The notes under the pieces were generated by a model, which searched no databases, was not told the DNA's origin, and saw only the letters and a program-made list of their open reading frames with translations. From NCBI GenBank assembly GCA_021822495.1, contig JAKAQO010000008.1:1-64000 (forward strand): a stretch of DNA of 64,000 nucleotides, in the 5' to 3' direction. Below are positions 16,247 to 36,878 of the stretch, in pieces; within the stretch, counting starts at the first letter, position 1, and the number at the start of each line of letters is the position of its first letter. Made by a program: the position numbers and the translations under genes. The DNA is from a bacterium. Lineage in GTDB: Bacteria; Elusimicrobiota; Elusimicrobia; UBA1565; UBA9628.

Positions 16247-16252
16247 GCCCGT

Positions 16253-17044: not shown

Positions 17045-17238
17045 CCCGCCAGTCCTCGCCTTTTCCTATAAAAGGCGATATCATGGGATAATTTCCGCGT
17101 TTGGGCGTCCATGAGACCAAGAAGGGCGTCGGCCTCTTGCGTCGGAAGGGCCTCAATCATCTCCGCCGCGCTTTTGAGGCTCAGACACCGGGAATTGATG
17201 TCGTGGAGGAGGGCGCCCATATCATCCAGGGCGTTCAT
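17041..17238 (-). CDS. Stand-alone DHp (HisKA-like) small protein
   Basis: 65 residues from ATG 17238, overlapping the response-regulator stop by 17 bases and the methyltransferase start by 4. It is predicted to be two long helices. The first contains LLHDINSRCLSL, which resembles a histidine-kinase H box (HD-N/x). The second ends in a basic tail (FYRKRRG). No ATPase domain follows. It could be a phosphotransfer protein, a kinase-dimer poison or an adaptor for the neighbouring kinase/regulator pair. The resemblance is short, so the function is tentative, but the overlaps on both sides support a real gene. Confidence 0.65.
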   Translation of the reverse strand: MNALDDMGALLHDINSRCLSLKSAAEMIEALPTQEADALLGLMDAQTRKLSHDIAFYRKRRGLAG

Positions 17239-18583: not shown

Positions 18584-18598
18584 GAAGCATTGTAGCAT

Positions 18599-19417: not shown

Positions 19418-19483
19418 CCTCCTGACCACACCCCCACAACCATATTAAAAAATGATGGTTTTAGTGGTGCTGTGGTCAGGAGG
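19418..19483. other. Long interrupted inverted repeat, candidate oriT
   Basis: CCTCCTGACCACA (19418-19430) pairs perfectly with TGTGGTCAGGAGG (19471-19483). Inside are CCAC/GTGG and AACCAT (19438-19443) / ATGGTT (19455-19460), giving a 66-nt nested dyad with an AT-rich centre. It sits 57 bases upstream of the Replic_Relax gene in a non-coding gap of about 250 bases. This fits a transfer origin, but a terminator or attenuator is an alternative. Confidence 0.45.
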
Positions 19484-19539
19484 ACGGCGGGGGATAATGA
19501 GCAGGAAATAGAGGAAAGGATGGGTTGAGGAGTTTAGAA

Positions 19540-20466
19540 ATGAGGGGAGAGATGATTAAGGTCAAGGTTTGGGAAGGGGAGGAAAAATCTGAATTTGAGG
19601 TCAGGAGATCAGGGTTAGGAGTCTTAAAAGGTCTGGAGAGATGGGGGGTTTTGAGTCTGTCACAGATAGAGGGATTGGTGTTTGGCAAGGCATCGGGAAG
19701 GAAAAGATTGGAACTGTTTTTCAATGGAAGGTTCAAGGATGAGTATCGGGGAGCGGCCTATAAAGTTCTGGAAAGGCTGGTTAAAAGAGGCTTGGTGATG
19801 GGGCAAAGCTATGTCAATTTGACGCGGGTTTACTCATTAACCAGGAAGGGACATGCGGCTTTGGTTGAGTCTGGACTGGCGGGTCTTGAGGACTACAGGG
19901 ACACGGTTTCCGACAGCATGATCCGGCATGAGCTGTTGGTTTCGGGGATCGGTCTTGTCATCAGCGAGTTGATAGGGCTTCCGGTGGCCACTAACTTCGA
20001 ACATCAAATCCTGAAGCGAGGAGAGGCGGGCCAAGGGTCGCCTTCGCCTGATCTGTGGGTATCCATAGGCGTTGGCGCCCAGCCTCTGGGCGGGAGCGCC
20101 CAATCTTTGGGCGGGGGGTCAAATGCCATCGAGGTCGAGAGAAGCCTTAAATCAGCCGAGCGCTACCAGGGACTCTGGGAGCTCTACCGCTACTACTTTT
20201 CCGGGGGCGGCGTTGTTCTCTACATCACGGCTTGGCCTGGACTGAGCCATAAAATTTTGTCGCTGGCCCGGAAATTCCTGATGGATTTTATCTATGTCTG
20301 TCCGCTTGAGGACTTCCGCAAATCCCTGGGAAAAGGCGCTTTTGTCAACTATCGCGGCGAACAATTCAGTCTGGGACGGCCCCAGTCTGTAGAGCCGCTG
20401 AGCCAAGGCCTGGGCGCCCAGCGTCCCCGGCCCGAACATAAATTGGCTCTAGGTTTACCGCGATGA
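19540..20466 (+). CDS. Replication-relaxation (Replic_Relax)-like protein
   Basis: About 308 residues. An N-terminal winged-helix part (about 25-95, RLVKRGLV and RVYSLTRKGH) is followed by an alpha/beta domain with PDLWV and IEVERSLKSAERYQ, the pattern of the Replic_Relax family found on plasmids and integrative elements. It may initiate or assist DNA processing at the proposed oriT. A 21-bp repeat pair inserts GAQPLGG-type residues between the conserved PDLWV and IEVE strands, and another palindrome lies near the C-terminus. ATG 19540 has GAGGAG upstream; 19552 is an equally good start. Its stop overlaps the coupling-protein start (ATGA). The first 250 bases are unusually purine-rich. Confidence 0.65.
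   Translation: MRGEMIKVKVWEGEEKSEFEVRRSGLGVLKGLERWGVLSLSQIEGLVFGKASGRKRLELFFNGRFKDEYRGAAYKVLERLVKRGLVMGQSYVNLTRVYSLTRKGHAALVESGLAGLEDYRDTVSDSMIRHELLVSGIGLVISELIGLPVATNFEHQILKRGEAGQGSPSPDLWVSIGVGAQPLGGSAQSLGGGSNAIEVERSLKSAERYQGLWELYRYYFSGGGVVLYITAWPGLSHKILSLARKFLMDFIYVCPLEDFRKSLGKGAFVNYRGEQFSLGRPQSVEPLSQGLGAQRPRPEHKLALGLPR
20071..20117 (+). repeat. Two tandem 21-bp units inside the Replic_Relax gene
   Basis: GGCGCCCAGCCTCTGGGCG followed by GAGCGCCCAATCTTTGGGCG, encoding GAQPLGG-SAQSLGG. The insertion preserves the frame between conserved strands of the host protein. Confidence 0.8.
20404..20425 (+). repeat. Palindromic unit near the Replic_Relax C-terminus
   Basis: Contains the perfect 12-bp palindrome CTGGGCGCCCAG (20410-20421), the junction of two 21-bp-family half-units. 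It encodes QGLGAQ. Confidence 0.55.
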
Positions 20467-22160
20467 ACATCCATTTATTAAGTCTGATGCCTCGCCTTCA
20501 TCTCACCGGGACGCTTCCTTTGAGACTCCGCCGCAGGCATCCTTCCCTCTCGGCTGAGCGCGCTGCGGCTTTGGGGGGACTTGCCGCTTTTCTCGCGATG
20601 TCTTTCCGTGGACCTCGCCAAAAGCGCAAACCCGGGTGGAATCAACCGGGCCAAGGTCGCGGCTTCGTCACGCGGGACCTCGACCGTATCCTAAAAAGAA
20701 ACCTTGCTTCACCTAGAGGCCGCGCTCACAAACTCAAATTTTGGACCGACGCCTCCCCGTCACCGGCCGCTCTCCACAAGACGTTTTTGGGAATCGCACG
20801 CGGAACCTGGGGCCGGCGTCCGGTCTATCTCCAGAACCAAAACCGCCAACCACATATGCAAATCGTGGGACCGACGCGCTCGGGAAAATCCCAACTCCTC
20901 TTGGCCTTGTCCGCCCAGGATATGCGCGCCGGCATCCCGCTCTTTTTCATGGAGGCCAAGGGGGATGACTCGGACTTTAATCAATTCCTCGCCCTGGCTT
21001 CCCTGGCCGGACGGGCGGGCGATGTCCGGTATTTCAACCCGCAGGACCCGCGCTCCATGACCTTTAACCCCATCCGCCGACTCCCTGGTCAAGACGCCAA
21101 CTCACTGGCCGACCAACTCTCACGCATCCTCGGCCGAGAACCGGGTTCCGGCGCCGAGGCCCAGGACTATTACAAATCCGTGGACTATTCCAAAATCCAG
21201 AATATGTCCGAAATCTTCTGGGAGACCAATCTCCAATATACCTTGCGCGATTGCTTCTGCTATTTCAACTATCCCGAGTGTCGGGAAAAGGCCTGGCGTT
21301 TGTCGAGAAGCGCCAGACTCATCGAGATGGCGCGCCGCGAGTTCGAGCAGAAAACCGATACGGCGGCCCTGACCTCGGCCCTAAGACCTTATGTCACCGG
21401 ACCCCTGGGAGAATTGCTCAACTCCTATGCCCCGCAAATCAAACTCGAGGAAATCTTCTCCCGCAATCAACTCGTCTATTTCGCCATCCCCATCGGATAT
21501 CTTCCGGTTCTGGCCAATCCGCTCGGACGCATGCTCATCTCGGGACTATTGTCGGTCGCGGCCTTCAGACAGCGTCAAGCTCCCAAACCCGGACCGGCTT
21601 CAATCATTTTAGATGAGTTCGCGGAATTTGCCACCCCCGCTTTCGCCTCCTTCATCGCCACCGTCGGCTCCGCCAACTTCTGGACCACCCTCTCCCATCA
21701 GGACCTGGGCCAGCTCAAAAAAGTCCAGGGAACCAATCCCGAGGCCTTTAAATCCGCCGTCTTCAACAACACCTCCGGCTGTAAAATCTGCTTCCGAAGC
21801 CCCGACCCCGCCGACGCCGAGTTCTGGTCCGCCGTGCTCGGAACCTACCAGACCGTCGAGGACACCGAACGGTTTAAAAAAACTTTATTCGGCACGCAAG
21901 GAACGGGGGAAATCTCGCGCAGAACCGTCGAACATTTCAAGGTTCATCCCAATACGCTTAAAAATCTAGCCCCCGGAACCGCTTTGGTTTTCTCTCCAGG
22001 ACATGAGGACTCCCTCATCCGCACCGCGCGCGTCTTTAATCTCATCAAGAACGCGCGACCGGAACTGAGCCGCGTTACGACTTTGGAAGAACCAGGACTT
22101 GATCTGGCTTCCATCATCAAACCTCCACAAGCCGCCGCGGACAGGAAAACCCGGATATGA
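20463..22160 (+). CDS. Type IV coupling protein (VirD4/TraD/TraG-like)
   Basis: 565 residues. Walker A is GPTRSGKS (136-143), Walker B is IILDEFAEF (about 380-388), and the later Q/H-rich motif LSHQDLGQL is typical of T4CP ATPases. At most one weak N-terminal membrane helix (about 33-48) is visible, fewer than classic TraG. It docks the relaxosome to the T4SS and powers DNA entry. Both ends overlap neighbours by ATGA, with the Replic_Relax gene upstream and the surface-protein gene downstream, so it is translationally coupled to both. Confidence 0.85.
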   Translation: MNIHLLSLMPRLHLTGTLPLRLRRRHPSLSAERAAALGGLAAFLAMSFRGPRQKRKPGWNQPGQGRGFVTRDLDRILKRNLASPRGRAHKLKFWTDASPSPAALHKTFLGIARGTWGRRPVYLQNQNRQPHMQIVGPTRSGKSQLLLALSAQDMRAGIPLFFMEAKGDDSDFNQFLALASLAGRAGDVRYFNPQDPRSMTFNPIRRLPGQDANSLADQLSRILGREPGSGAEAQDYYKSVDYSKIQNMSEIFWETNLQYTLRDCFCYFNYPECREKAWRLSRSARLIEMARREFEQKTDTAALTSALRPYVTGPLGELLNSYAPQIKLEEIFSRNQLVYFAIPIGYLPVLANPLGRMLISGLLSVAAFRQRQAPKPGPASIILDEFAEFATPAFASFIATVGSANFWTTLSHQDLGQLKKVQGTNPEAFKSAVFNNTSGCKICFRSPDPADAEFWSAVLGTYQTVEDTERFKKTLFGTQGTGEISRRTVEHFKVHPNTLKNLAPGTALVFSPGHEDSLIRTARVFNLIKNARPELSRVTTLEEPGLDLASIIKPPQAAADRKTRI

Positions 22161-25100
22161 ACCGCGCCAACCAGCTTAAGAAATTCCACTATCTCGCGCT
22201 CCTTGCGCCCCTAGCCCTTTTGCTGACTTCCCCCAGCGCCAAGGCCGATAACTACTTCCCTCAATTTTCATTCAACGCCCCGTTCGCTATCGCCGCCATG
22301 GACCGCGACGCCGTGGGAAATCTCTACCTCCTCGGTACCCCGCAAGGAAGGTCTTCTTTACAGGTCCTCGAAGTGGCGGAGGAAAATCTTAACTCACCAA
22401 ATCCAAGCCTCACCACCCTCTCCTCTTTCGATACCGGACTCTCAACCGCCTCGGCCTTCGCCGTCGAGGGCTCCGGCATCATTGACATCCTTGACGACGC
22501 AAACGGCTACCGCTTCACCCGCTTCTCGAACTCGGGAACCTTCATCAGCTCCGCCGCCTATTTCCTCAGCTACATCGCCCCCAATATCGTTTCAACCGCC
22601 ATCGATAAAATCAACGACCGCGTCTATATCGCCTATCAATACACCTATACCCCCATCTACGTACAATGCCTCGGCTGCCAAGGACCTTCCACCGTCACCA
22701 CCGCCAAGATTAACGAGTATGACTTCGCGGGAAATCTCCTCAACGCCTTTTATATGCCGGGTACAAGTTCCTCTGGCTGCAACACGCCCTCGGCCGCCGC
22801 CGTGGACCCACAGGGAAACCTGCATATAGAAGACTCGGTCTGCCAACAAATCCTCAGCTATTCTCCCAGCGGACAAAACTTAAGCCAAACTCCCAATCCT
22901 GAATGGATGAGCGCTCGCCTAATGTGGACCGACCTGGATTCAAACCTCTATCTCAGCGGAACCGTCTGCGCCGGAACTTGCGCCCCGGAAATGCTCAAGC
23001 TGGGAAACGGAGGAACGCTTCAAACAAGCCTGTTGACGACGCTCGCCGTGGGCTCGGCCTGGGATAACCGCATCTTGTATCTGGCCAATGGAACTTCTCT
23101 CGAACGACAAGTCTACGCCGGAGCCCCATCAGTGCCGGTTGAAATTTCTCCCATGGGACTGACCGTCCAGCATTCCTCCGCCGCGACACTTTCCTGGCAA
23201 ACGGTCTCAGACCCAGACGGCGACCCCATTCTCTACACCGCCTACCTCGGGCAATCGCCACAGTCTCTTCAAACACTGCCAACAACCGCACAATCCACAC
23301 TCTCAACCCAACCCCTCGATTTCGGAACAACCTATTACTGGACGATTTCCGCCCAAGCCTTCTACCTCGGACTTCCCCTCGAGGCGACCTCGGCCCCCAT
23401 CGAAAACTTCAATCTCGGCCTTATCAACAATCCGCCGGGCAACTTTTCGGTCCTCTCGGGAACCGGAACCTTTGAAACCCGCGCCTCTTCTCAAACCCTG
23501 TCCTGGCAACAAGCCCCGGACCCCGACGGCGACGCAGTCAATTACGTTCTAAACCTCTCAACGGTCCCGGGAGTTTCTAACCTCATCCAGATGGGAACCG
23601 CAACCGATTACGTCCTTAATTTTCAATACGGAACCACCTACTACTGGAGCGTCACGGCCACCGACAGTTACGGCGCGGCGACGACGATGACGGGGGGAAC
23701 GCAAACCTATCTCCCCATCTTCTGGAACCCGCAACCCCTTCCAGTGGTCTATCTCAGCACGGCTTCCTCTTATAACCTCCACACCGACTCGCCAACCATC
23801 AATCTCAGCTGGTCGCCCTCCAGCGACGCGGCCTCGGATTCTATCAGCTACGCTCTCTTCGTCAAGACGAGCACGGGAAACTGGCCGGCTATTTCCACCG
23901 GACAATCAACCAATATCAACCTATCGGTTCAGCTGGGAACCACCTATTACTGGGAGGTCCTGGCGGAAAACCCCTATGGCGGAATCTCAACCGCAACCTG
24001 GCAAAACTTCGTCGTCAATCTCCAAAACGACCCGCCGGATAATTTCTCGGTCCTATCGGGCACCGGAACCTTTGAGACGCGCGCCTCTTCTCAAACCCTG
24101 TCCTGGCAACAAGCCCCAGACCCCGACGGCGACGCAGTCAATTACGTTCTAAACCTCTCAACGGTCCCGGGAGTTTCTAACCTCATCCAGATGGGAACCG
24201 CAACCGATTACGTCCTTAATTTTCAATACGGAACCACCTACTACTGGAGCGTCACGGCCACCGACAGTTACGGCGCGGCGACGACGATGACGGGGGGAAC
24301 GCAAACCTATCTCCCCATCTTCTGGAACCCGCAACCCCTTCCAGTGGTCTATCTCAGCACGGCTTCCTCTTATAACCTCCACACCGACTCGCCAACCATC
24401 AATCTCAGCTGGTCGCCCTCCAGCGACGCGGCCTCGGATTCTATCAACTACGCTCTCTTCGTCAAGACGAGCACAGGAAACTGGCCGGCTATTTCCACCG
24501 GACAATCAACCAATATCAACCTATCGGTTCAGCTGGGAACCACCTATTACTGGGAGGTCCTGGCGGAAAACCCTTATGGCGGAATCTCAACCGCAACCTG
24601 GCAAAACTTTATCGTCAATCTCCAAAACGACCCGCCGGGAGATTTCTCGGTCCTATCGGGAACCGGAACCTTTGAGACGCGCGCCTCTTCTCAAACCCTG
24701 TCCTGGCAACAAGCCCCAGACCCCGACGGCGACGCGGTCAACTACGCTCTAAACCTCTCGACCGTCCCGGGAGTTTTTAATCTCATCCAGATGGGAACCT
24801 CGACCGATTACGTCCTCAACTTTCAATACGGGACGACTTACTACTGGAGCGTTTCGGCCTTTGACGATTTCGGCTCAAGTTCGACCATGACGAGTTCGCC
24901 GCAAACTTTTTTGCCCCTCTTCTTAAACCAAGCCCCGCCGCCGCCCAATCTCGTCTCGCCCTTCCTTCAATCCCCCATAGTCCACTCCATGTCCAACAAC
25001 GTCAATGTCTCCTGGCAAAAAGTTTCAGACCCGCAAGACGACCCCATCGCCTATACCCTCTATTTCGGCGAGTCTCCCTCCGATATGCCGCCCTTGGCCG

Positions 25101-25642
25101 TCCTCGACGCGCCCAGAGTCTGGGCCGACGCGCCCGCAAGTCAATCCTCAGAATCCCTCAATCTTAGGCCTTTAAGCCCTCAACCTAATATCCAAATATC
25201 AGTCGCCCAGGACACTTCCTCCATCGCCGTCGAAATCATGAACCTCGCCTATTACCAGAACTATTATCTCAAGGTCGCCGCCGCAAACCCCTACGGCTCG
25301 ACATCCGAAACCCAAATCCAACAATTCTCACTGGCATCAAACGTCGATTTCCCCAGGGCCTACAATTATCCCAATCCCTTTAGCCCCTATAAAGGAGGGA
25401 CGCATATCGTCTTCAACGCCCCGCCCTCGGGATATGCGCAAGCAACCGTCGAGATTTATTCGGAATGGCAGACTCTCCTCTTTAAACAGGATTACTTCCA
25501 TATCCCGCCCGGCATCAGTCAACAGGATTTTAACGGCCGCGACCGCTACGGAAAACCACTCTTCAATGGCAGCTATATCTGCAAGGTTCGCTTCTCGGGA
25601 CCGGCAGATGCCGCGACCTTTTACCTGATGGTGGTCAAATGA
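22157..25642 (+). CDS. Secreted FN3-repeat surface protein within the T4SS operon, FlgD/T9SS-like C-terminus
   Basis: 1161 residues, signal peptide about 1-30 (ending AKAD). The N-terminal 330 residues resemble an NHL-like or beta-propeller region (IYVAYQ- and NLYLSG-type strands). At least seven fibronectin-III-like domains follow with the recurrent YYW signature (TTYYWSV, TTYYWEV), including two nearly identical 200-residue blocks. The C-terminal domain begins YNYPNPFSPYKGG and ends FYLMVVK, a sorting-type domain. It overlaps the coupling protein and the next PorV-like gene by 4 bases each. A role in donor-recipient adhesion or surface exclusion is inferred. One 21-bp-family repeat lies at 25105-25135. 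Confidence 0.75.
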   Translation: MNRANQLKKFHYLALLAPLALLLTSPSAKADNYFPQFSFNAPFAIAAMDRDAVGNLYLLGTPQGRSSLQVLEVAEENLNSPNPSLTTLSSFDTGLSTASAFAVEGSGIIDILDDANGYRFTRFSNSGTFISSAAYFLSYIAPNIVSTAIDKINDRVYIAYQYTYTPIYVQCLGCQGPSTVTTAKINEYDFAGNLLNAFYMPGTSSSGCNTPSAAAVDPQGNLHIEDSVCQQILSYSPSGQNLSQTPNPEWMSARLMWTDLDSNLYLSGTVCAGTCAPEMLKLGNGGTLQTSLLTTLAVGSAWDNRILYLANGTSLERQVYAGAPSVPVEISPMGLTVQHSSAATLSWQTVSDPDGDPILYTAYLGQSPQSLQTLPTTAQSTLSTQPLDFGTTYYWTISAQAFYLGLPLEATSAPIENFNLGLINNPPGNFSVLSGTGTFETRASSQTLSWQQAPDPDGDAVNYVLNLSTVPGVSNLIQMGTATDYVLNFQYGTTYYWSVTATDSYGAATTMTGGTQTYLPIFWNPQPLPVVYLSTASSYNLHTDSPTINLSWSPSSDAASDSISYALFVKTSTGNWPAISTGQSTNINLSVQLGTTYYWEVLAENPYGGISTATWQNFVVNLQNDPPDNFSVLSGTGTFETRASSQTLSWQQAPDPDGDAVNYVLNLSTVPGVSNLIQMGTATDYVLNFQYGTTYYWSVTATDSYGAATTMTGGTQTYLPIFWNPQPLPVVYLSTASSYNLHTDSPTINLSWSPSSDAASDSINYALFVKTSTGNWPAISTGQSTNINLSVQLGTTYYWEVLAENPYGGISTATWQNFIVNLQNDPPGDFSVLSGTGTFETRASSQTLSWQQAPDPDGDAVNYALNLSTVPGVFNLIQMGTSTDYVLNFQYGTTYYWSVSAFDDFGSSSTMTSSPQTFLPLFLNQAPPPPNLVSPFLQSPIVHSMSNNVNVSWQKVSDPQDDPIAYTLYFGESPSDMPPLAVLDAPRVWADAPASQSSESLNLRPLSPQPNIQISVAQDTSSIAVEIMNLAYYQNYYLKVAAANPYGSTSETQIQQFSLASNVDFPRAYNYPNPFSPYKGGTHIVFNAPPSGYAQATVEIYSEWQTLLFKQDYFHIPPGISQQDFNGRDRYGKPLFNGSYICKVRFSGPADAATFYLMVVK
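23441..24870 (+). repeat. 600-bp in-gene tandem duplication
   Basis: The block starting at 23441 recurs at 24041 with very few differences, and the first part recurs more diverged from 24641. The period is exactly 600 bp (200 residues), encoding pairs of FN3-like domains. The near identity suggests recent duplication or gene conversion. Confidence 0.9.
25105..25135 (+). repeat. 21-bp-family unit in the surface-protein gene
   Basis: GACGCGCCCAGAGTCTGGGC followed by CGACGCGCCC, encoding DAPRVWADAP. This is the same alternative frame (APxxWA) as in the VirB10-like gene. Confidence 0.55.
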
Positions 25643-27552
25643 GGCGGCTTAAATTTGTTTTGGGATTGAGCCTTCTGGTCTTTTCCCGAGCGCCGCTTCG
25701 CGCCCAAATCCTCGGCGCGGCCTCGGGACAATTTCTCTCCCGCGGACCGGGCGCCTCCGCCGCCGCCTTGGCCGGCAGCGTCGTCTCCATCGTCAACGAC
25801 CCCACCGCCCTCTACTGGAACCCCGCCGGCATCGCCAACTCAAACGGCATGATCTCGGGCGAACATCTCTTCCTCGTCGGAGGAGCCCGCTACGATTTCA
25901 TGGGACTCACCGTCCCCTCGGACTTCGGCAGCTTCGGCCTCGGCGTCATCCAGCTCGCTCGCGACAATATCGTCGCCCGCTCCTCCATTGACGACCCGGG
26001 CTACGACATATCAAACACGCAATCAGACTACATGGCGGGTTTCGCGAAAAACCTGGGAGAACACTGGAGCGCCGGACTCTCCGCCAATGTCCTCGATTTC
26101 AACCTCGCCGGATACTCGGACCTCGGCTGGGGACTCAACGGCGGCGTCATGGGGCATTATCCCGCCAATGATTTCATGGGACTTAAACGCGCCGTCTGGC
26201 TCATGGGAGCCGACCTGGATAATTTTGTCCAACCTCAAATCAATCTGGCCGGAACGCCGGAAAATTATCCCACTTCGCTGCGCGCGGGCGGGGGACTCTC
26301 CTTTCAAGCCGACTCGAGAGCCGAGGCATCGGGCGTGATCAATCATGACCGGATCACCGTTCTCTTTTCAGTTCAGAAAAATATCAGCGGCGAAAATCTC
26401 TATCCCACCCAAGGGCTTAACGCCCTCGCCTTGGGCGTCGAGTACAACTACCAAAATATCCTTATCCTCCGCGCCGGATTTAACGGCGCCCTCACGGGCG
26501 GCATCGGACTTCAAACAGAGGACGATCGCTTCGAACTCGATTATTCCATCGAAAACGACCCCCTGGGTTTTAACAACCGCTTCACCCTCGCCTATCGCTT
26601 CTCCCAAGCCCCAAGCCCTGAAAAACGCCCGGAAATTTATCGCGAGATTGCCGATGAGGAATACGTACAGGCTAGAACCCGCGCTCAATCCCTGGCCAAA
26701 CGATTTTCCGCATCGGGACAAACTGATATGAGCCGCGAGGATTTTTCAAGGGCCAAATCCCTTCTTCGCCTCGCCTCTTTTCTTAACCCCGACAACGCGG
26801 CCATGAAAAAAGACTACCGCCAAGCTGAAACGGCCGAAAAAATAGAACGAGTCCAGCGCGATGAGGACCTCCTCGCTCGCGGATTGGACCCCCAAGAAAC
26901 CTATCAGGATTACGCCGCCGTCTTTGAACTCGCCTTCCTCAAACCCCAAGAGCAAAATAAGTGGCGAAAAACCCTGCGCCAAATCGCCTCAAACCTGGAC
27001 GCCGGAAAATGTTCCCTCATCTCGGGAGAACTTTTTGACGCCGAGGCCCCCAGGGCCCGGAGATGGGCAAGGCTGGGACTTCTCGAACAAGCCCTGAATC
27101 TGGCCACGGCGCTTAAAACCATCGCCACGCGTGGCGTCGCCGCGCCCGCAACCGCCGACGCCGCCGATAATCTCAGGCGCGAAATAGCGAACAAGGCCGC
27201 TTCGCTTCAAACAAGGTTTGATTGGCTGATTAAGGAATCCGGCGCCTCTCCCGATGCCGAGACGGCGAGAACGGCCTTGTCTGTCCTGCGCGCCTTCCCC
27301 AATGACGCCGGGGAAACCCGAAACGCCGAGCAAATCCTTGAACGCTATCAAAATCATCACCCCCTTTCCATCAGGGAAGGGTTCTACCTTAAGAAACTCT
27401 ATTACCTCGCCGCCATCGACTTTTCCGATAAGACGCCGGAAAAAAACGCCGAGGCGGAAAAATACTTGGACGAAATCTTGACCGATAATCCCGCCGATGA
27501 GAACTCTGGCGCGCTTCTCGGCGCCCTATCAAGGCGGGAGTCGAAACAATGA
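25639..27552 (+). CDS. PorV/PorQ-like barrel with long helical extension
   Basis: 637 residues. After a signal peptide, residues about 25-330 carry the UPF0164/PorV signature (SRGPGASAAALAGSVVSIVNDP...LYWNPAGIA) and a beta-barrel pattern. Residues about 335-637 are a helical, TPR-like periplasmic extension (for example FSRAKSLLRLASFLNPDN) absent from ordinary PorV. It overlaps the surface-protein gene upstream and the VirB2 gene downstream by ATGA. Its place between the coupling protein and the pilin suggests the extension could dock the barrel to the conjugation machine or the cargo. Confidence 0.8.
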   Translation: MRRLKFVLGLSLLVFSRAPLRAQILGAASGQFLSRGPGASAAALAGSVVSIVNDPTALYWNPAGIANSNGMISGEHLFLVGGARYDFMGLTVPSDFGSFGLGVIQLARDNIVARSSIDDPGYDISNTQSDYMAGFAKNLGEHWSAGLSANVLDFNLAGYSDLGWGLNGGVMGHYPANDFMGLKRAVWLMGADLDNFVQPQINLAGTPENYPTSLRAGGGLSFQADSRAEASGVINHDRITVLFSVQKNISGENLYPTQGLNALALGVEYNYQNILILRAGFNGALTGGIGLQTEDDRFELDYSIENDPLGFNNRFTLAYRFSQAPSPEKRPEIYREIADEEYVQARTRAQSLAKRFSASGQTDMSREDFSRAKSLLRLASFLNPDNAAMKKDYRQAETAEKIERVQRDEDLLARGLDPQETYQDYAAVFELAFLKPQEQNKWRKTLRQIASNLDAGKCSLISGELFDAEAPRARRWARLGLLEQALNLATALKTIATRGVAAPATADAADNLRREIANKAASLQTRFDWLIKESGASPDAETARTALSVLRAFPNDAGETRNAEQILERYQNHHPLSIREGFYLKKLYYLAAIDFSDKTPEKNAEAEKYLDEILTDNPADENSGALLGALSRRESKQ

Positions 27553-27881
27553 AAAAGGAGAACAACGAAACAATGAAAAAGAAAACGCGAAATAGTCTGC
27601 TGGCGGCGGGAACGGCCTTGATGACGGCCGCACCCGCCTTTTCACAAGTCGTCATGGGAAACCAGGCCCAGGTGGGAACCTTCCTCACCTCGGCCTCGAA
27701 CTGGCTGGTGACGATCCTCGGACCCGGGGTCTTCATGATCGGCGTCATCATGGTCGGCATCAGCCTCGCCATGGGAGATCAAGACGCCATGCGGCGAGGC
27801 TTCTATGTCATCGGCGGAGGAGCCTTGATATTTCTCTCAAGCTCGGTCGTCAGCCTCATCCAATCGCTCGCGGGGCAATGA
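27549..27881 (+). CDS. VirB2/TrbC-like conjugative pilin
   Basis: 110 residues. A long signal sequence (about 9-33, ending AFSQ) is followed by two hydrophobic helices (about 47-71 and 84-106) separated by a short charged loop, the TrbC/VirB2 layout. After cleavage it would be a pilin of about 75 residues. ATG 27549 overlaps the PorV-like stop; an in-frame ATG at 27573 follows AAGGAG at long spacing and may be the main start. Confidence 0.8.
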   Translation: MKKENNETMKKKTRNSLLAAGTALMTAAPAFSQVVMGNQAQVGTFLTSASNWLVTILGPGVFMIGVIMVGISLAMGDQDAMRRGFYVIGGGALIFLSSSVVSLIQSLAGQ

Positions 27882-27957
27882 GATGAGCCTGGACTCGGCG
27901 TCAACGGCCGCTGAACTCGCGCCGGAATGTCTATCCAACATCAAACGGAGGTTTACA

Positions 27958-28467
27958 ATGTCAAAACAAATGGAGAATCAAGAAAATCAAAAGGGGGGAG
28001 AGAAATCTTGCCAAGACTTCGGGCTCCTCAACCCGCAATCTGGAGGAACGCTCCGGAATCTTCCCGAACTAAACGAAGTGGCCTTGGCCGGCCGGCTCGT
28101 CAACGCCCCGACAGTCAAGGACTTCGGCGAGGATAAGCTGCGGGCGCAGTTCATCCTCGGCGTGCCCAAACCCCGCCGCGAGGGCGTGGAAAAGCCCATC
28201 GGCGTCAGGGCGATGGACTTTGTCGTCGTCACCGCCTGGCGAACCATGGCGCGGGAATGCGCCAAGCTCAGGAAGGGCGACGGCATCCAAATCCAAGGCC
28301 GTCTGAGGAGCTGGAAAGACGAGCATGACCGCGAGGCGTCCGGACGCGCGCGCTTCCGCTTGAACGTAGAAGCCGACATGCTCCAAATCCTCGACCGCGG
28401 ACTTCTCCAGCCCGCTCATCCGTCGCCTCAAACCGGAAAAACCGATGAGGGGGAGGAAATCGCCTAG
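27958..28467 (+). CDS. ssb: Single-stranded DNA-binding protein (element-encoded)
   Basis: 169 residues from ATG 27958, with GGAGG upstream. The OB-fold runs about 40-145: NEVALAGRLVN, then FVVVTAWRTMARECAKLRKGD and IQIQGRLRSW, the standard SSB family order. The C-terminus (EGEEIA) is acidic but lacks the DDIPF tip of chromosomal SSB. It probably protects transferred single strands. Its place directly after the pilin gene supports an element-specific role. Confidence 0.8.
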   Translation: MSKQMENQENQKGGEKSCQDFGLLNPQSGGTLRNLPELNEVALAGRLVNAPTVKDFGEDKLRAQFILGVPKPRREGVEKPIGVRAMDFVVVTAWRTMARECAKLRKGDGIQIQGRLRSWKDEHDREASGRARFRLNVEADMLQILDRGLLQPAHPSPQTGKTDEGEEIA

Positions 28468-28551: not shown

Positions 28552-28890
28552 ATGCAGCCCGTCAAAATCCACGCCCATATCAACGCCCCCGATCAAATCC
28601 TCGGTCTTGAACTCGCCGATGGAGCCGTTATTCTCCTAGTCTTCTTTTTGACTTTTCTCTTTAACAGAAGGGGCTTGTTTCTCAACCTCCTCATCCTGGC
28701 TCTGGTCTATTTCGCCCTGCGCCTCTTAAAACGCGGAAAACCAAGCGGCTATCTCCTCGTCCTCTTTAGGTTCCTTCTCCTCAGCCGATTTAGACGATTG
28801 CCGGAACCGGAGGAGGAAGAGGGAATCCTTGTTTCGCAGCCCGATGAACGCCTTGCCGCGCGCGGCCTCAGGGGAAATACTGGTCCATGA
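28552..28890 (+). CDS. TraL/VirB3-like T4SS inner-membrane protein
   Basis: 112 residues. The N-terminal motif HINAPDQILGLELAD matches TraL of F-type systems (short N-terminal motif, then two adjacent membrane helices, about 25-42 and 45-63), followed by a basic then acidic tail. It anchors VirB4/TraC at the membrane. Its last 23 bases overlap the convergent PIN toxin gene, suggesting the toxin module inserted here. Confidence 0.75.
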   Translation: MQPVKIHAHINAPDQILGLELADGAVILLVFFLTFLFNRRGLFLNLLILALVYFALRLLKRGKPSGYLLVLFRFLLLSRFRRLPEPEEEEGILVSQPDERLAARGLRGNTGP

Positions 28891-29591: not shown

Positions 29592-29620
29592 ATTATACCA
29601 GGTTTACCCATCATTTGCCA
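29592..29620 (-). promoter_or_regulatory. Promoter of the PIN/RHH toxin-antitoxin pair
   Basis: On the minus strand, TGGCAA (29620-29615), 17 bases, then TATAAT (29597-29592). The -10 lies inside the palindrome TATAATTATA, a plausible RHH operator. The leader is about 30 bases. Confidence 0.5.
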
Positions 29621-29656
29621 GAGGGAACAATTCAATTTCCTGGAGAGTCAAAATCC

Positions 29657-32104
29657 ATGAACCGAATCGAACTCAAGCTGACTAAACTTAGAAACGTTCT
29701 CCACGCGCCGAAGGTTCCAAGCCTGGCGCAATATCTCAATCTCCTCGCGATTGAAGAAGGCGTTCTGATCGGCGTTGACCTGGAATTTTCAAGCGTCTAT
29801 GAAGTGGAGCCCATCTCGGTTGAGCTCATGGACCCCCCCGCGCTTGAACTCTTCAGCTCGCGAATGCAAACGCTTCTCAACAGTCTTCCCCCAGAAACCG
29901 CCGTTCAATTCATCGTCCAAATCCGCCACGGTGACCCCGACGCCATCCAGAAATTCAGGAAAGAGACGCTTAAAAATAACCCGGACGAACTCTCCCGCCT
30001 CATCTTGAACAAAAAATGCGAGGCCCTCCAAAATAAATTCATCCAGCGACGCAGACATCTTCTCTTCGCCACCACCAAACCCAAGGACGGAAAACTCCCC
30101 ATGACCTCGATTCTCCCCGTCTACTGGCGGCCCGCTAAAGAAGCCGCGCTCGCCTTCCACGAACTTCGCCGCCGCGAACACGCGGTCCTCGAACAGACCC
30201 TCGAGGAACGCCTGCAAAACGCGGGAATCAAATTTAGGAAGCTTTCCTCCCAAGAGGTTTTGGACCTGGTCTTTGAACGCCTCAACCCGGAACGCCCCTT
30301 TCCCATGAAGCTTGAGTCCCTTAATCCCCATCAAAGCCTGCGCGGCCAGATTCTGTTTAACGCACTCAAGGAGGACTTTGACCGCCTCCAGGTCGGAGGC
30401 TCGTGTTTTAGGGGGCTGAGCCTGTTAAGCCTCCCCGAGGCCGCGCATCCCTTTTACGCCCAACGCCTCCTCGACAGCCTCTGGCCCGATTGCGACCTCA
30501 TCCTCAATGTCCATCCCCTGAACACCGAGACTGCCATCTCAAGGCTTAAGCTCAAAAACAATATCAGCCGCGCCCTCCTTTTGCCGGGACTCGGCAAAAA
30601 TTACGAGGCCGAGCAAAAGCATCTCGAACTTGACGAACTCATCACCGATATCCGCTCCTCATCCCAAAGACTTTTTGAGTTTTCTCTCTCGGTCCTCATC
30701 AAGGGAAAGAGCCCGGGGGAACTCGAGGATAAAACCCTTCCCGTTTTGGGCGCCTTTCATGATTTTGCCTCATCCCAAGCCGCTTCCGACGACATGAATC
30801 ATTCCCGCATCTTCCTCCAATCCATCCCCGGACACTCCGGCCTCGTCGGTCGCAGGTTTTTCATCCAGACCCACGCGCTTTCAGCCCTCTTGCCCCTGTC
30901 GGGTTCCTGGAAAGGCTCCCAATCGAAGAAATTCCTCGTCGAAACTCCACTGGGAGAGCTGGTGGGATTGAATCCCTTCGACTCGGAGCTCCCGGCCAAG
31001 CACGGAATTGTCCTCGGAACCACGGGCTCCGGAAAAAGCTTCTCGACCAATTACCTCCTTAGCGGTTTTCTGTCCGAGTCCCAGGACAACCACGTCATCA
31101 TCATTGACGTGGGCGGCTCCTACCGCAAGCTCGCCTCCATTTTTTCGGGGGATTATTTGGAGGTCAGCCTTTCCGAACGCTACGGCTTCAACCCCTTTCC
31201 GCCCAAAGAGCAGATCGCCCCCGAGGGAAATTTCGACGACGACGCCGTGGCCTATCTCTCCCTTTTGATTTCCCGCATGTGTCTGAGCGGCAAGGCCGCC
31301 GCCTCGGTCCATGAAAAAGGATTTTTAGAGCGCGCCATTAAAGACGCCTACTCCCAAAAAGACGAGGTCCTTCTCTCGGATATCCGGGAAGAACTCCTCA
31401 AGGCTTCCGGTTCTCGGCCCTCCGCCAAGGCCTATTACGATTCCCTTGAACTCTGGACCGATGGGATGTACGGCCGGCTGTTTAACCGGAAGGGAAATCT
31501 CGATTCGAAAAAACGCTTGGTCGTCTTCGATCTCCAAAACCTCGACCATCACCCGGACCTCCAGAGCGTTTATTTCTTCGTCATCCGTTCGATGATCTGG
31601 GGAAAACTCTCGAACCGCGCCTTGAAAAAGATCATCGTCATCGACGAGGGGTGGAAATTCTTTGACGACGAGGTGGGCTCGGAACTGGTCCAGAACCTCT
31701 ACCGCACGGCCCGCAAATTTAACGGCGCGGTCCTCTCCATATCCCAATCGCCAAAAGACTTCCTGGACACCAAGGCCGCCCCCGCCATCATCGCCAACTC
31801 CTACGTGAAGTATATTCTCAAGCTCTCCAAGGGACATGAGCTCCTTAAACATTTCGATCTCAATCCAAGCGAGGAGGCGGCGGTCAAAAATTTACAGTCC
31901 AAGCACAAGGTCTTTAGCGACCTCTTCGTCAAGTTCGGAGCGCATGGCCTGGTCGCGCGCATCGAGCCCGGACCCCTCGATTACTGGATTTGCACCACCG
32001 ACGCTTCCGACCACGTCAGGGAAAACGCGCTCAGAAACAAACGCCCCGAACTCTCGGAAACGGAACTATTGCTGAAGCTAGCGGGAGGGGAAAATGAGAA
32101 TTAA
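29657..32104 (+). CDS. VirB4/TraC-like T4SS ATPase
   Basis: 815 residues from ATG 29657 (GGAG upstream). The N-terminal VirB4-type domain is followed by the ATPase with Walker A GTTGSGKS (near 462), Walker B IIVIDEGWKFF and the downstream SISQSPKDF motif, typical of VirB4/TraC/TrbE. It energises pilus assembly and substrate transfer. It is separated from the TraL-like gene by the antisense PIN module, so its transcription may depend on read-through or a local promoter. Confidence 0.9.
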   Translation: MNRIELKLTKLRNVLHAPKVPSLAQYLNLLAIEEGVLIGVDLEFSSVYEVEPISVELMDPPALELFSSRMQTLLNSLPPETAVQFIVQIRHGDPDAIQKFRKETLKNNPDELSRLILNKKCEALQNKFIQRRRHLLFATTKPKDGKLPMTSILPVYWRPAKEAALAFHELRRREHAVLEQTLEERLQNAGIKFRKLSSQEVLDLVFERLNPERPFPMKLESLNPHQSLRGQILFNALKEDFDRLQVGGSCFRGLSLLSLPEAAHPFYAQRLLDSLWPDCDLILNVHPLNTETAISRLKLKNNISRALLLPGLGKNYEAEQKHLELDELITDIRSSSQRLFEFSLSVLIKGKSPGELEDKTLPVLGAFHDFASSQAASDDMNHSRIFLQSIPGHSGLVGRRFFIQTHALSALLPLSGSWKGSQSKKFLVETPLGELVGLNPFDSELPAKHGIVLGTTGSGKSFSTNYLLSGFLSESQDNHVIIIDVGGSYRKLASIFSGDYLEVSLSERYGFNPFPPKEQIAPEGNFDDDAVAYLSLLISRMCLSGKAAASVHEKGFLERAIKDAYSQKDEVLLSDIREELLKASGSRPSAKAYYDSLELWTDGMYGRLFNRKGNLDSKKRLVVFDLQNLDHHPDLQSVYFFVIRSMIWGKLSNRALKKIIVIDEGWKFFDDEVGSELVQNLYRTARKFNGAVLSISQSPKDFLDTKAAPAIIANSYVKYILKLSKGHELLKHFDLNPSEEAAVKNLQSKHKVFSDLFVKFGAHGLVARIEPGPLDYWICTTDASDHVRENALRNKRPELSETELLLKLAGGENEN

Positions 32105-32774: not shown

Positions 32775-32803
32775 AGTTTAACTCCAATATCATGCCCTGT
32801 CAA
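32775..32803 (-). promoter_or_regulatory. Promoter/operator of the RelE/Phd pair
   Basis: Minus strand TTGACA (32803-32798), 17 bases, TAAACT (32780-32775). The nearby AGTTAAC and GTTTAACT form an imperfect dyad over the start region, a likely antitoxin operator. Confidence 0.55.
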
Positions 32804-32842
32804 GGGCGCCCGAAATTACAAACAGCAAAACAGGAGAAACTC

Positions 32843-33556
32843 ATGAAACAAACCGCGTTCTTTTCACTACTGCTTATCCTATTCGCCGCGCCCGCGCGCG
32901 CCCAGTTCCTGGTGGGGTCCGCCGTCAGCGGAATGCAGTATGCCCAGGAAAAGGCCTATGAGGCCTTCATGAAAATCCAGATCATCCAGGAACTCGAGAT
33001 TCTCCGCCAAAACTATACCGCCTCGGTCAATTACTACAACCAGTTCAAGCAGCTGAACTCGGGGAAGGGCTTTTTGTTCAACCTCTCCCAACAGTTTAAG
33101 ACCGCCGAGAACGCCGACATCGCCCAGATGAAGTGGCAACTCCTTGATTCCTATAACGGAAATACCGCGACCGACCGCTTCGTCGAACAGGCCAATGAGA
33201 CCGTTTATAACGACATGGCCTATGCGGGAAACGAAGCGGCCAATCTCATCTCGAATAAAAAAACGGCCCGTCAGCTCGCCCAAAACGCCGGAAATTTGTC
33301 TCCCAAGGACGCCGCCAATCTCACCGCCAAATCGCAAAGCCTCGAACTTCAAATGCTCCTTCAGCTTCACGAAGACAATCTGCGCCTCATTGAGCTTGCC
33401 TCGATACAGACATTAGGACAAAACCAGCGCGGCAAAGGAGAACTCAACATGATCCAAAACATCAAGGCCGGACTTAAAAAGCGCTTCCCCAACGCTCAAA
33501 TCGGCGGGGGCGCCCAGCCCCTGGGCGGGGGCGCCCAGCCGCTGGGAGGAAATTAA
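32843..33556 (+). CDS. VirB5/TrbJ-like T4SS protein
   Basis: 237 residues from ATG 32843 (AGGAG upstream), with a signal peptide (about 1-21, ending ARAQ). Long helices (about 25-215) resemble VirB5/TrbJ minor pilin or tip-adhesin proteins: QIIQELEILRQNYTAS and LLQLHEDNLRLIEL. The C-terminus ends in two GAQPLGG units from the 21-bp repeat family. It starts after the antisense RelE module. Confidence 0.75.
   Translation: MKQTAFFSLLLILFAAPARAQFLVGSAVSGMQYAQEKAYEAFMKIQIIQELEILRQNYTASVNYYNQFKQLNSGKGFLFNLSQQFKTAENADIAQMKWQLLDSYNGNTATDRFVEQANETVYNDMAYAGNEAANLISNKKTARQLAQNAGNLSPKDAANLTAKSQSLELQMLLQLHEDNLRLIELASIQTLGQNQRGKGELNMIQNIKAGLKKRFPNAQIGGGAQPLGGGAQPLGGN
33505..33553 (+). repeat. Two 21-bp units at the VirB5-like C-terminus
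   Basis: Two copies of the form GGCGCCCAGCCCCTGGGCGG encode GGGAQPLGGGAQPLGG directly before the stop codon. The palindromes may also act at the mRNA level near the downstream start. Confidence 0.85.
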
Positions 33557-34543
33557 ATGAATCCCAGCGTCCTCATCAATCTCTCTCAAATACCGATACA
33601 ACTCTCGGGACTGAGTTCCTTGACTACGGCCATCGCCCTGGGCCTTCTGGCCTTCATCATCCCCTACTCCGCCGTCGAGATGAATCTGCGCGCAATCTCG
33701 GGGCGAGGTTCGCCGGGATACGCCGGGCTCTTTCTTCGCATCGCTATCGCCATGAGCTGCCTGCTTGCCTATGACAAGCTCTACGGACTCTTCCTCGGAG
33801 CTTTCCAGGCCCTGTCTTATTCGGTCCTCAGCTCACAAGATTGGGGAAATTTCCTCGTCAAGGATTTTTCGGCCCCCAACGCCGCTTCCCCGATCCTCTC
33901 CTGGCTGACCCATCCCCTCAGTTCGGTTCAGGCCATCGTCCTATTCCTGGCAAGCCTCTTTGCCGTCACCGCTAAGGACGTCATCGTCATGCTTCAGGCT
34001 TCTTTTCTGAGCCTTCTCTTCGCCTTCGGACCCATCGCCATCGTCTGCTCAATCAGCGAAAAATCATTCTGCGTGACCAGGGGCTGGCTGGTCAACTCGG
34101 TTCAGATCGCCTCCTGGAGTTTTTTCTTGAGACTCGTCATCCGGGTTTGGCTGACCCTTGGCCCTTTGGCGACTAATACGGGAACCGGAACGGCTAATGA
34201 TTTCCTGGGTCTTTTGGCCGTCAACTCGGCCTTTTTTGTCCTGGTCCTGGGAACGCCGATTCTATCGGCGCGGCTGATATCGGGGGAAAGCCTGTCCTTT
34301 TTCGCCGAGGCGGCCCTGGGGACGATGAACGCGGCGGCCATCGGCCTTCCTTTAAAAGCGGGGAAATATTTAGGCGAGAGATCCCGAAACGCGGGGGGAA
34401 ATATGCGGACTCGAAGCGAGGGCGCCCCGCCAACGCCTCAAAGAAACGCCCTCCCCATGACCGCCACCTCCGCCTATCGCCGCCTCTTCAAGCGAAAAAA
34501 CGACAAGAAACCGGATGATAAAAAATCAGGAGAAAATCCATGA
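33557..34543 (+). CDS. VirB6/TrbL-like polytopic T4SS channel protein
   Basis: 328 residues with about six or seven membrane segments (for example 23-44, 58-84, 118-140, 147-170, 181-201 and 217-240) and a basic hydrophilic C-terminus (RLFKRKNDKKPDDKK). This matches VirB6/TrbL topology. The ATG follows the VirB5-like stop without a gap, and the stop overlaps the next start (ATGA). Confidence 0.8.
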   Translation: MNPSVLINLSQIPIQLSGLSSLTTAIALGLLAFIIPYSAVEMNLRAISGRGSPGYAGLFLRIAIAMSCLLAYDKLYGLFLGAFQALSYSVLSSQDWGNFLVKDFSAPNAASPILSWLTHPLSSVQAIVLFLASLFAVTAKDVIVMLQASFLSLLFAFGPIAIVCSISEKSFCVTRGWLVNSVQIASWSFFLRLVIRVWLTLGPLATNTGTGTANDFLGLLAVNSAFFVLVLGTPILSARLISGESLSFFAEAALGTMNAAAIGLPLKAGKYLGERSRNAGGNMRTRSEGAPPTPQRNALPMTATSAYRRLFKRKNDKKPDDKKSGENP

Positions 34544-35325
34544 TCGGATTTAAAACGAAGACCCCGTCAAAGCCGAAGGCTCAAATTAATTCTTCCTCGG
34601 CGGATGTTCGGCCGGAAACCCAGACCCTGGGCGGGGGCGCCCAACCTCTGGGCGCGGACGCCCAACCTTTGGGCACGAACGCCCAGCCTCTGGCTGGGGG
34701 CGATGAGTCTCTCGGCGTTCCCATCTATTACGAGGCCTGGGGCGGTCTTGAAAGCGCCAATAAAACCTTGTGGACCGCGCTTTGGTTTGCGATCAGCGCC
34801 GCGATCCTTTTAATCATCCTCCTTCGCCTGGAGATTCAAAAGCCGCCGGTCGTCATACTCCTCAGCCAAACGGGAAGCCCCCAGGTCGTCGTGGGAGCGC
34901 AATCCGCCCCGCCCGTCAGCGCCGATGAAATCAAAAATTTCATCGCCCTCTTCGAACGCTTCTTCACCGAGCTTGACCGCTACGCTTACAATGAAAGCCT
35001 TCAAACTGCCTTCTCCATGATGACCCCCAAGTTTAAAATAAAAGCCCAGGATATCCTTGACCGCGAGGGCCTCATCGAAACCATCAAAACGGATGAGATT
35101 AGGACGAAATTGACGCTGACCGATATTTCCATCGTCAGGGAAACCCCTGAATTCATCGAGTGCGACGTGAAGGGCTGGCGCGAGATTAGCTCCTTTAAAC
35201 TAGACGGACCCAAGTCCGAGATCGTGTTTGAAGACGAGATCATCTTAAAAAAAGTCCCGCGCTCACAAACCGCTCCCGACGGCGTCTTGGTTAAGGACTG
35301 GAAGGAAAGCCTCTTTAAAAAATGA
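34540..35325 (+). CDS. VirB8/TraE-like T4SS scaffold protein
   Basis: 261 residues. A cytoplasmic N-terminus (1-85) is followed by one membrane helix (about 87-107, WFAISAAILLIILL) and a periplasmic NTF2-like domain (about 125-255), as in VirB8. The N-terminus contains about five tandem heptads of GAQPLGx type encoded by 21-bp units (34621-34725), lengthening the cytoplasmic segment. ATGA overlaps at both ends indicate translational coupling. Confidence 0.75.
   Translation: MIGFKTKTPSKPKAQINSSSADVRPETQTLGGGAQPLGADAQPLGTNAQPLAGGDESLGVPIYYEAWGGLESANKTLWTALWFAISAAILLIILLRLEIQKPPVVILLSQTGSPQVVVGAQSAPPVSADEIKNFIALFERFFTELDRYAYNESLQTAFSMMTPKFKIKAQDILDREGLIETIKTDEIRTKLTLTDISIVRETPEFIECDVKGWREISSFKLDGPKSEIVFEDEIILKKVPRSQTAPDGVLVKDWKESLFKK
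34621..34725 (+). repeat. Array of about five 21-bp units in the VirB8-like gene
   Basis: The units encode TQTLGG, GAQPLGA, DAQPLGT, NAQPLAG and GDESLG, with the outer units most degenerate. The core is GCGCCCAACCTCTGGGCGC. The period is 21 bp, so the frame is kept whatever the copy number. Confidence 0.9.
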
Positions 35326-36110
35326 ACAGACTTATTTTTTTCTCGGCCGTAACTGCCGTCCTGGCCGCCGCTTTTCTTCTCTCTTCCCATCCCGCGCCAA
35401 AAACAAATTATGCGGCCAGCGCCGGAACCTTGATGCAATCTTCCAACCAGCCGCAACCAACGGAAAACTTAAACCTCCTTGGAATTCCCGCGACAATGCC
35501 TCGGGCTCAAACCTCCAAACCCGCGCCGCGAATTAAACACAAGCGCGAAAAATTCCCAGTGGGTAAAAAGACTTCAGAAACGCCGACAAAAACGGGAAAC
35601 GAACAATCAAGTTCTCATGGAAACACGCCCTCGCCCAAGGCCCAGGTCAACGCCGCCCTGTCCCTTAAAAGAGCGGGGGATAAAAATTCCTCCGCCGACT
35701 TTATGGACAGCCTTCCGCGATATATCACGGAAGACCTCATCCAGGCTTTTGAAAAAGACCCCGCGAAGTATTTCCCCAAGGAATTAAAAGAGAAGGGCGG
35801 CATCGCCCTCAGGCTCATCGCGCTTGAGAACCTTGAGGATATGCTCGTCCTTAAGCTTGCCGTGGAAAATAGATCATCGGCGAATTTCTTCATTAAGGGA
35901 TTTAAGGCGAGTTCGGGCAGCCAAAGGCTGGGGGAACGTTCCTTGTTCAAGATTTTAGTCGAGGCCAAAACGACCAGGCGGGGATATGTTCTCATCCAAA
36001 AACCTAAGAGAAAAGGCGAGACTCGGATGAGTTCGGGCCTTGCGCTCGCCCTGGAAGAAGAAGGAGGTAAAAACAGGGTCATCGAGATTCCCATCCCGGA
36101 CCCCTTTTAA
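35322..36110 (+). CDS. VirB9/TraN-like T4SS periplasmic protein (tentative)
   Basis: 262 residues. An N-terminal signal or anchor (about 5-22) is followed by a Pro/Lys/Ser-rich linker (about 35-115) and a C-terminal beta-rich domain (about 150-260). LVLKLAVENRSSANFFIKGF resembles the VirB9/DUF4138-type pattern of a strand followed by polar NRSS and an aromatic pair. It sits between VirB8- and VirB10-like genes, the expected place for VirB9. Similarity is weak, so this call rests on position and fold pattern. Confidence 0.5.
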   Translation: MNRLIFFSAVTAVLAAAFLLSSHPAPKTNYAASAGTLMQSSNQPQPTENLNLLGIPATMPRAQTSKPAPRIKHKREKFPVGKKTSETPTKTGNEQSSSHGNTPSPKAQVNAALSLKRAGDKNSSADFMDSLPRYITEDLIQAFEKDPAKYFPKELKEKGGIALRLIALENLEDMLVLKLAVENRSSANFFIKGFKASSGSQRLGERSLFKILVEAKTTRRGYVLIQKPKRKGETRMSSGLALALEEEGGKNRVIEIPIPDPF

Positions 36111-36113
36111 ATT

Positions 36114-36878
36114 ATGAAACGATTAAAAAAGAGCTCAAAGGTTTTAATTCTGGTCGCCGCTTCTGGTCTTTGGATCGGAATGCCAAGCCCCCGGGGGCGG
36201 ACGCCCAACCTTTGGGCGGGGGCGCCCAGCCTCTGGGCGGAAACGCCGAAGGAAACCCCGCCCCTTGATCCCCTGGCCTTGGACCATCATCTTAAAGACG
36301 ATAAGCCCCGGCCTTGGCGGGGCGTGACGAAAAAAAATCAGACCAGCGATCGCTATTTTTTGCCCACCGGATTTACCTTTCCGGTCCGCCTTGAAAACGC
36401 CGTCTATTCCTATAACGTGGAAAGCCCCGCCATCGCCGCCGTGGATGAGGACATTGTCTATCTCGGCCGCGTCGTCATCCCCAGAAAAACCCGCGCCATC
36501 GGAGAAGTCTCGGTCCAGCAGGATCATAACCGCATCCTCATCACCTTTAGAACCCTCGTTTTTCCCTCGGGAGACGAGATCGCCTTTACCGGACTCGGCC
36601 TTTCCACGGACGGCTCCCTGGGGATTAAGGGAAAGGTCAAGACGCACAAGGATTCCGCCATCGCCGACACGGTCTTAAGCTCGGTCGTCAGCGGGGCGCA
36701 GGAAGCGGCGATGATGACGACGACGGCGGTCAACCCCGTCGCCGAGTCTGCCGTATCGGGACTTGCCGGAGAAGCCACCGGCGAACTGGGCGCTCAAAGA
36801 CAAAAAATCACCACCTCCATCTCGGTTGAGGCCGACACCGGACTTCAGATTTTCGTACCCAGAAGAGTCGAGTATTAA
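36114..36878 (+). CDS. VirB10/TrbI-like T4SS protein
   Basis: 254 residues. A single hydrophobic N-terminal segment (9-21) is followed by a repeat-derived Pro/Trp-rich stretch. The VirB10-type C-terminal beta-barrel (about 82-250) then shows VYLGRVVIPRKTRAIGEV, ITFRTLVFPSGDEI and SVEADTGLQIFVPR. It is much shorter than typical VirB10 (about 380), mainly in the linker. The 21-bp repeat is read in another frame here (RTPNLWA-GAPSLWA). It spans inner to outer membrane in known systems. Confidence 0.75.
   Translation: MKRLKKSSKVLILVAASGLWIGMPSPRGRTPNLWAGAPSLWAETPKETPPLDPLALDHHLKDDKPRPWRGVTKKNQTSDRYFLPTGFTFPVRLENAVYSYNVESPAIAAVDEDIVYLGRVVIPRKTRAIGEVSVQQDHNRILITFRTLVFPSGDEIAFTGLGLSTDGSLGIKGKVKTHKDSAIADTVLSSVVSGAQEAAMMTTTAVNPVAESAVSGLAGEATGELGAQRQKITTSISVEADTGLQIFVPRRVEY
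36187..36245 (+). repeat. Two to three 21-bp units in the VirB10-like gene, alternative frame
   Basis: The units GGCGGACGCCCAACCTTTGG and GGCGCCCAGCCTCTGGGCG encode RTPNLWA and GAPSLWA instead of AQPLGG, so the same DNA unit has been accepted in a different reading frame. A related palindrome (CCCCGGCCTTGGCGGGG) lies at 36308. Confidence 0.85.

Follow-up and report, generated by a model that had tools for sequence, protein, structure and literature searches.

Organization of the transfer operon

The window (the whole stretch of 64,000 nucleotides that was analyzed) carries an operon in which conjugative type IV secretion system (T4SS) markers, namely VirB4, VirD4, VirB2, VirB3 and TrbI/VirB10, are found together with the genes of a fibronectin type III (FN3) surface protein, hereafter the cargo, and of a PorV-like barrel (Table 1). 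The gene order virD4 - FN3 protein - PorV-like - virB2 and the coordinates given in a preliminary description of this DNA were confirmed, each neighbouring pair of these four genes overlapping by 4 nt. That description emphasized consecutive overlaps: all three occur in the window copy and the one between the cargo and PorV genes is conserved, but the one between the PorV and virB2 genes is peculiar to the window copy, since relatives have 9-16 nt between these two genes. Owing to a short duplication, the window virB2 has two candidate start codons (ATG) separated by 24 nt. The operon looks complete: after the PorV gene, it runs from virB2 to a TrbI-domain virB10, followed by the genes of a helix-turn-helix protein and of an integrase. 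The likely ATG start of virB4 is at 29657 (M of MNRIEL). The VirB9-position protein gave no convincing Pfam match, even when searched as a family of 11 members. All 13 aligned VirB10 orthologues, from 13 loci, consist only of the TrbI domain preceded by a short signal-type segment, the cytoplasmic/inner-membrane part usually present at the N-terminus being missing.

Table 1. Positions of the features of the transfer operon in the window
Feature	Coordinates	Strand	Evidence
OrfA, conserved, upstream of virD4	19525..20466	+	weak PadR / MobC-type match, invariant ExE and K
VirD4/TraG-type coupling protein	20463..22160	+	Pfam TraG-D_C 1.8e-9, T4SS-DNA_transf 4.5e-8
Surface cargo (FN3 protein), 1161 aa	22157..25642	+	fn3 3.5e-12
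CTD coding region of cargo, YPNPF...NGSY...VVK, T9SS type A-like	25355..25642	+	
PorV-family barrel with C-terminal TPR-like arm, 637 aa	25639..27552	+	NF033709 (PorV_fam) 3.8e-25
VirB2 pilin	27549..27881	+	TrbC/VirB2 7e-13
SSB-like protein, kept in operons of close relatives	27883..28467	+	PF00436 6.8e-11
VirB3/TraL	28552..28890	+	PF07178 8.8e-6
VirB4/TraC ATPase	29615..32104	+	TIGR02746 5.9e-78
VirB5-position periplasmic protein	32792..33556	+	position and orthology across loci; no Pfam match
VirB6-position polytopic protein	33557..34543	+	position and orthology
VirB8-like	34540..35325	+	weak DotI/VirB8 matches, orthology
VirB9-position protein	35322..36110	+	position only
VirB10/TrbI-domain protein	36114..36878	+	TrbI 4.9e-18
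Tyrosine integrase of the element	37279..38418	+	PF00589 2.3e-18; equivalent place in L053, L176, L177, L178

No relaxase was recognized among the window genes scanned, OrfA having just a weak MobC-type match, and it is therefore from its gene content that the element is predicted to be conjugative. A MobF relaxase is encoded beside the related T4SS of locus L172. The distribution of the element is patchy, four congeners having no VirB4 match. The tRNA-Gly gene at 42007 was considered as an attachment site and rejected, since no repeat of its sequence occurs within the window.

Other features were observed around the operon. A hairpin-type repeat, CGCCCA-N4-6-TGGGCG, with a 21-nt period, is found seven times in the element region (at 13607, 20076, 20097, 33511, 34638, 36202 and 36223) and a further 12 stretches of this genome, about 198 kb in all, contain none; several copies lie inside coding frames, giving AQPLGGG-type peptides in OrfA, VirB5 and VirB8. 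An inverted repeat at 19418-19483 (20-nt arms and 26-nt loop), upstream of OrfA and virD4, may be an oriT or a terminator. Next to the integrase gene, an AbiEi-like gene (4e-57) precedes one of the GmrSD/DUF262 type (38530-41649); together they are probably a cargo for defence, and two related elements, L050 and L052, also have the AbiEi-like gene at their side. The minus strand of the region that immediately precedes the transfer operon (12472-18598) encodes a histidine kinase, a protein with a sigma-54 DNA-binding domain and a sigma-54 activator with a receiver domain, which are possible regulators.

The cargo protein

The cargo has a signal peptide, followed by a head formed by an NHL-type beta-propeller, a stalk of FN3 repeats and a C-terminal domain (CTD) similar to those of type IX secretion systems (T9SSs). 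The head (about 290 residues, from about 33 to 320) has conserved cysteines. Its model is a beta-propeller, with pLDDT values mostly of 65-93, for which Foldseek retrieved NHL domains (4.8e-12) and PDB profile searches also gave matches. The stalk includes a 600-nt tandem duplication (repeat 23426-24925). The sorting-type C-terminus proposed initially for this protein is supported by profile matches among 21 orthologous cargo C-termini (FlgD_ig for 20 of them, the CHU_C type IX signal for 12 and the NCBIfam T9SS type A Por_Secre_tail for seven, with individual scores often below the curated cut-offs), and the last residue is K or R in all 21. Solved relatives of this CTD include FlgD and the C-terminus of PorU itself.

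The length of the cargo ranges from 278 to 2546 aa across T4SS loci, with short forms of about 280 aa in some T4SS subtypes, and the type of head differs by T4SS lineage (NHL propeller in the group of the window, Kelch propeller in L170 and L203). The idea of a hypervariable passenger was not borne out: close elements share 81-96% identity in this part, which is just mildly more variable than the neighbouring genes. A surface protein encoded in a transfer operon, with a head that changes between T4SS lineages, is compatible with surface exclusion, in which the displayed cargo, like TraT of F, would prevent element-bearing cells from serving as recipients. We nevertheless regard this role as unlikely: most exclusion proteins are small lipoproteins or reside in the inner membrane, whereas the propeller-on-stalk, reaching 2546 aa, resembles a binding protein. 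Genomes G225 and G226 each harbour two different T4SS elements, which shows only that distinct types tolerate each other.

The PorV barrel and its TPR arm

The model of the PorV-like protein (AF2 mean pLDDT 86) shows a barrel of about 14 strands (residues about 30-325) followed by 13 helices (about 330-637). The helical C-terminal extension noticed previously is therefore confirmed, and begins with a TPR. The closest folds are the T9SS PorVs of SprA translocons (chains 8gl6_F and 6h3i_F, Z 31, rmsd 2.8-3.3 over 282-284 residues), FadL scoring lower (Z 27.8). The PorV/PorQ family model NF033709 (cut-off 90 bits) gave 90.8 bits in the genome search and 89.2 bits with the whole protein.

The 2.2-Mb genome, in 15 contigs, contains about 14 PorV-family genes, most of which adjoin the gene of a CTD protein. 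Other PorVs of this genome, outside the T4SS, also have a TPR-type arm, indicating that such an extension is not special to T4SSs. The window itself contains two more such arrangements (2057-9578 and 55951-62273), in which the gene of a large CTD protein precedes a PorV gene.

Conservation of the pair in Elusimicrobiota

PorV and VirB4 were searched in 235 genomes of the class, and VirB4 in 340 genomes of the phylum. This revealed 26 VirB4 loci in 24 of the 340 genomes. At five of these loci (G029, G033:C46, G297, G299 and G300), the contig stops inside virB2/virB3/virB4 or shortly before them. The pair formed by the CTD protein and PorV is present at all the 21 assessable loci, across several families and classes, either on one contig (n = 19) or split over contigs that both carry T4SS genes (G016 and G032). 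Two additional PorVs adjoin T4SS genes in G042 and G033:C115. The preliminary description had proposed to search related genomes for this gene order and had envisaged that the pair might be absent from related elements, as expected for a one-off insertion. The opposite was found: the pair recurs at every assessable T4SS locus, with PorVs of one clade (see below), which rules out a one-off insertion. Furthermore, since the 2.2-Mb genome has just about 14 PorV genes and yet each assessable T4SS locus of the phylum carries one, the presence of the pair cannot be attributed to chance.

The commonest order is cargo-PorV-virB2-virB3-virB4, with virD4 immediately 5′ or shifted to the end of the operon. 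The pair is located further downstream in G225:C74, G027 and G032 (in L172, between virB8 and virB9/10). The cargo and PorV genes overlap at all 20 loci with a visible junction, by 4 nt in 11 of them, by 1 nt in L052 and by 20-44 nt in the others.

This constant association, mostly immediately 5′ of virB2, could mean that the pair belongs to the T4SS structure itself: barrel and TPR arm would cap or anchor the channel or the pilus at its outer-membrane end, and the cargo would be a component of the pilus base or tip. The reduced VirB10, which makes the envelope-spanning part unusual, and the retention of the TPR arm in most loci go in the same direction. However, PorV is a FadL-type monomeric barrel that would be too narrow for a pilus port, and the PorVs of L170 and L171 (about 416-432 aa) have little arm. 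Moreover, the T4SS cargo CTD profile matches the CTDs of the other PorV-neighbouring proteins of the genome (hhalign probability 99), and a CTD shared with proteins unrelated to the T4SS points to export rather than to channel building. A structural role thus appears improbable, and the outer-membrane port for the pilus suggested in the preliminary description found no support.

Single origin of the T4SS-associated pair

Among 90 PorV barrels placed in a tree, the 22 T4SS-labelled rows form one clade (100/99, recovered in 100% of bootstraps), which branches within PorVs from Elusimicrobiota and other phyla. One of these rows, the PorV of L059, lies at the end of a contig on which no T4SS genes are visible and was excluded from the linked count. 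The PorVs of L170, L202, L203 and L205 were found via VirB4 alone; therefore, the clade is not merely a product of searching by PorV similarity. Since all the T4SS PorVs belong to one clade, the pair was recruited once and then inherited with the T4SS. The distances between VirB4, PorV and CTD sequences are correlated (r 0.93-0.94, p 0.0001).

The association was found in Elusimicrobiota T4SSs only within the sets compared. HMM scans detected PorV at 22 of 22 and CTD at 21 of 22 Elusimicrobiota T4SS loci, and neither of them at 20 Bacteroidota VirB4 loci or on the best-matching (Myxococcus) plasmid. Although Bacteroidota have PorV (positive controls, 6/6 and 5/6), none of these 20 VirB4 loci carries the pair. 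All ten strong PorV loci had T4SS genes, which were found at 1e-6 in none of 70 weaker PorV loci, mostly from other phyla. PorV had no match in 72,556 plasmids; VirB4 matched plasmids at 26% or less among the best-covering matches, the top one being the Myxococcus plasmid devoid of the pair. A single weak PorV match was obtained in IMG/VR.

Considering that the genome has many such pairs, two of them elsewhere in the window, a generic host surface-protein/PorV pair could have hitchhiked on the element, serving a trait that has no connection with transfer. This is very unlikely, as the pair sits inside the structural operon with overlapping genes, is found at every assessable T4SS locus and involves a single PorV clade co-inherited with VirB4.

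Export machinery

In T9SSs, loops of PorV bind the CTD inside SprA, the CTD and PorV leave sideways, and PorV thereby carries CTD proteins out of SprA (PMC10994853). T9SS genes were stated to be absent outside FCB phyla, and Elusimicrobiota are not among the listed T9SS-bearing phyla (PMC11285876). The genome studied here encodes a SprA homologue of 1916 aa (L193:6050-11797), and partial matches to TIGR04189 (SprA), below its curated cut-off, were obtained in 16 of 18 related genomes. A search with a single SprA sequence gave no match, but a profile built from eight Elusimicrobiota SprA-like proteins retrieved solved SprA as its sole match (6.8e-15, in colinear pieces).

Initial searches for GldL and Peptidase_C25 matched nowhere and were replaced by GldL and PorU searches with Bacteroidota controls. 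The GldL motor was found in none of seven Elusimicrobiota genomes and in both Bacteroidota controls, although a diverged GldL-type motor could have been missed. For the PorU sortase, the same seven genomes gave matches to the CTD region only, whereas both controls gave full-length or long matches. The T9SS-like character put forward initially is therefore retained on the grounds of the SprA homologue of the host and the T9SS-type CTD of the cargo, but the system is not a canonical T9SS since neither GldL nor PorU was detected.

A putative mating adhesin

We consider it fairly probable that the pair serves Elusimicrobiota conjugative T4SSs as a module dedicated to mating adhesion, comparable in role to TraN, with a cargo exported via the host SprA. 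The mating adhesin and the exclusion factor had both been put forward as possible roles; the adhesin would fit better.

In the proposed sequence of events, of which the last three steps are the least certain, Sec would first move the cargo and the barrel into the periplasm. The PorV encoded by the element, probably acting as the carrier of the surface protein, would then dock on the SprA-like translocon of the host, capture the CTD and deliver the cargo to the cell surface. Thereafter, the CTD probably remains bound to its PorV, which would anchor the stalk; this is suggested by the lack of any PorU sortase found and by the PorV gene that adjoins most of such cargos. The C-terminus of PorV-type barrels is periplasmic and therefore the TPR arm should face the T4SS; it probably ties the adhesin to the T4SS core or to the cell wall, direct binding to T4SS parts being our guess. 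Finally, the head would bind recipient cells and stabilize or choose mating pairs, as TraN does for F. The propeller-on-stalk form, the wide range of cargo lengths and the lineage-specific heads fit a receptor-binding adhesin with exchangeable heads, and TraN provides a precedent for partner choice on the donor side (PMC10516633).

A closer integration of the two systems can also be envisioned, in which the TPR arm of PorV would couple the SprA-type translocon to the T4SS and T9SS parts would constitute the outer-membrane end of the conjugation apparatus; we hold such a hybrid to be quite unlikely.

Our search of the literature on Elusimicrobiota or PorV in connection with conjugation or type IX secretion retrieved no description of this pair. 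Conjugative elements of Elusimicrobiota thus seem to make their own cell-grabbing protein by a second, unrelated secretion route. If the adhesin role is true, the mating adhesin of a conjugation system would be produced by such a route, apparently as a feature of single origin shared by the T4SSs of an entire phylum. Export of CTD proteins through SprA and PorV is also indicated in a phylum not counted among T9SS carriers, with neither of the known partners, the GldL motor and the PorU sortase; the powering and anchoring of such cargos thereby become testable. Furthermore, exchangeable heads would offer a handle on how these elements choose their recipients.

Comparison with known systems

The pair resembles the PorV-SprA translocon and type A CTD cargos of the Flavobacterium johnsoniae T9SS (PMC10994853) by the fold of PorV, the CTD of the cargo and the SprA homologue of the host. 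It differs by the organization of PorV and cargo as a gene pair encoded in a conjugation operon, by the TPR arm of PorV, and by the GldL motor and PorU sortase, which were not detected here. With F-type/VirB conjugative T4SSs, the operon shares VirD4, the VirB2 to VirB6-position genes, VirB8 and a TrbI-type VirB10 in conserved order, its VirB4 being nearest to TraC; unlike them, it includes the cargo/PorV pair, its VirB10 is truncated and its VirB9-position protein is unrecognizable.

TraN of F-like plasmids, involved in mating-pair stabilization (PMC10516633), is likewise a donor surface protein encoded among transfer genes and has a variable tip, the proposed role being the same. However, no sequence relation was found, the TraN family being absent from the Pfam and NCBIfam matches of both the cargo and PorV, and TraN is a single outer-membrane protein whereas the pair consists of two, the CTD cargo being distinct from PorV. 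The aggregation substance PrgB, a conjugation adhesin of Gram-positive bacteria (PMC10516633), is also a large element-encoded adhesin promoting mating contact, but both its cell envelope and its display route differ from those of the pair described here.
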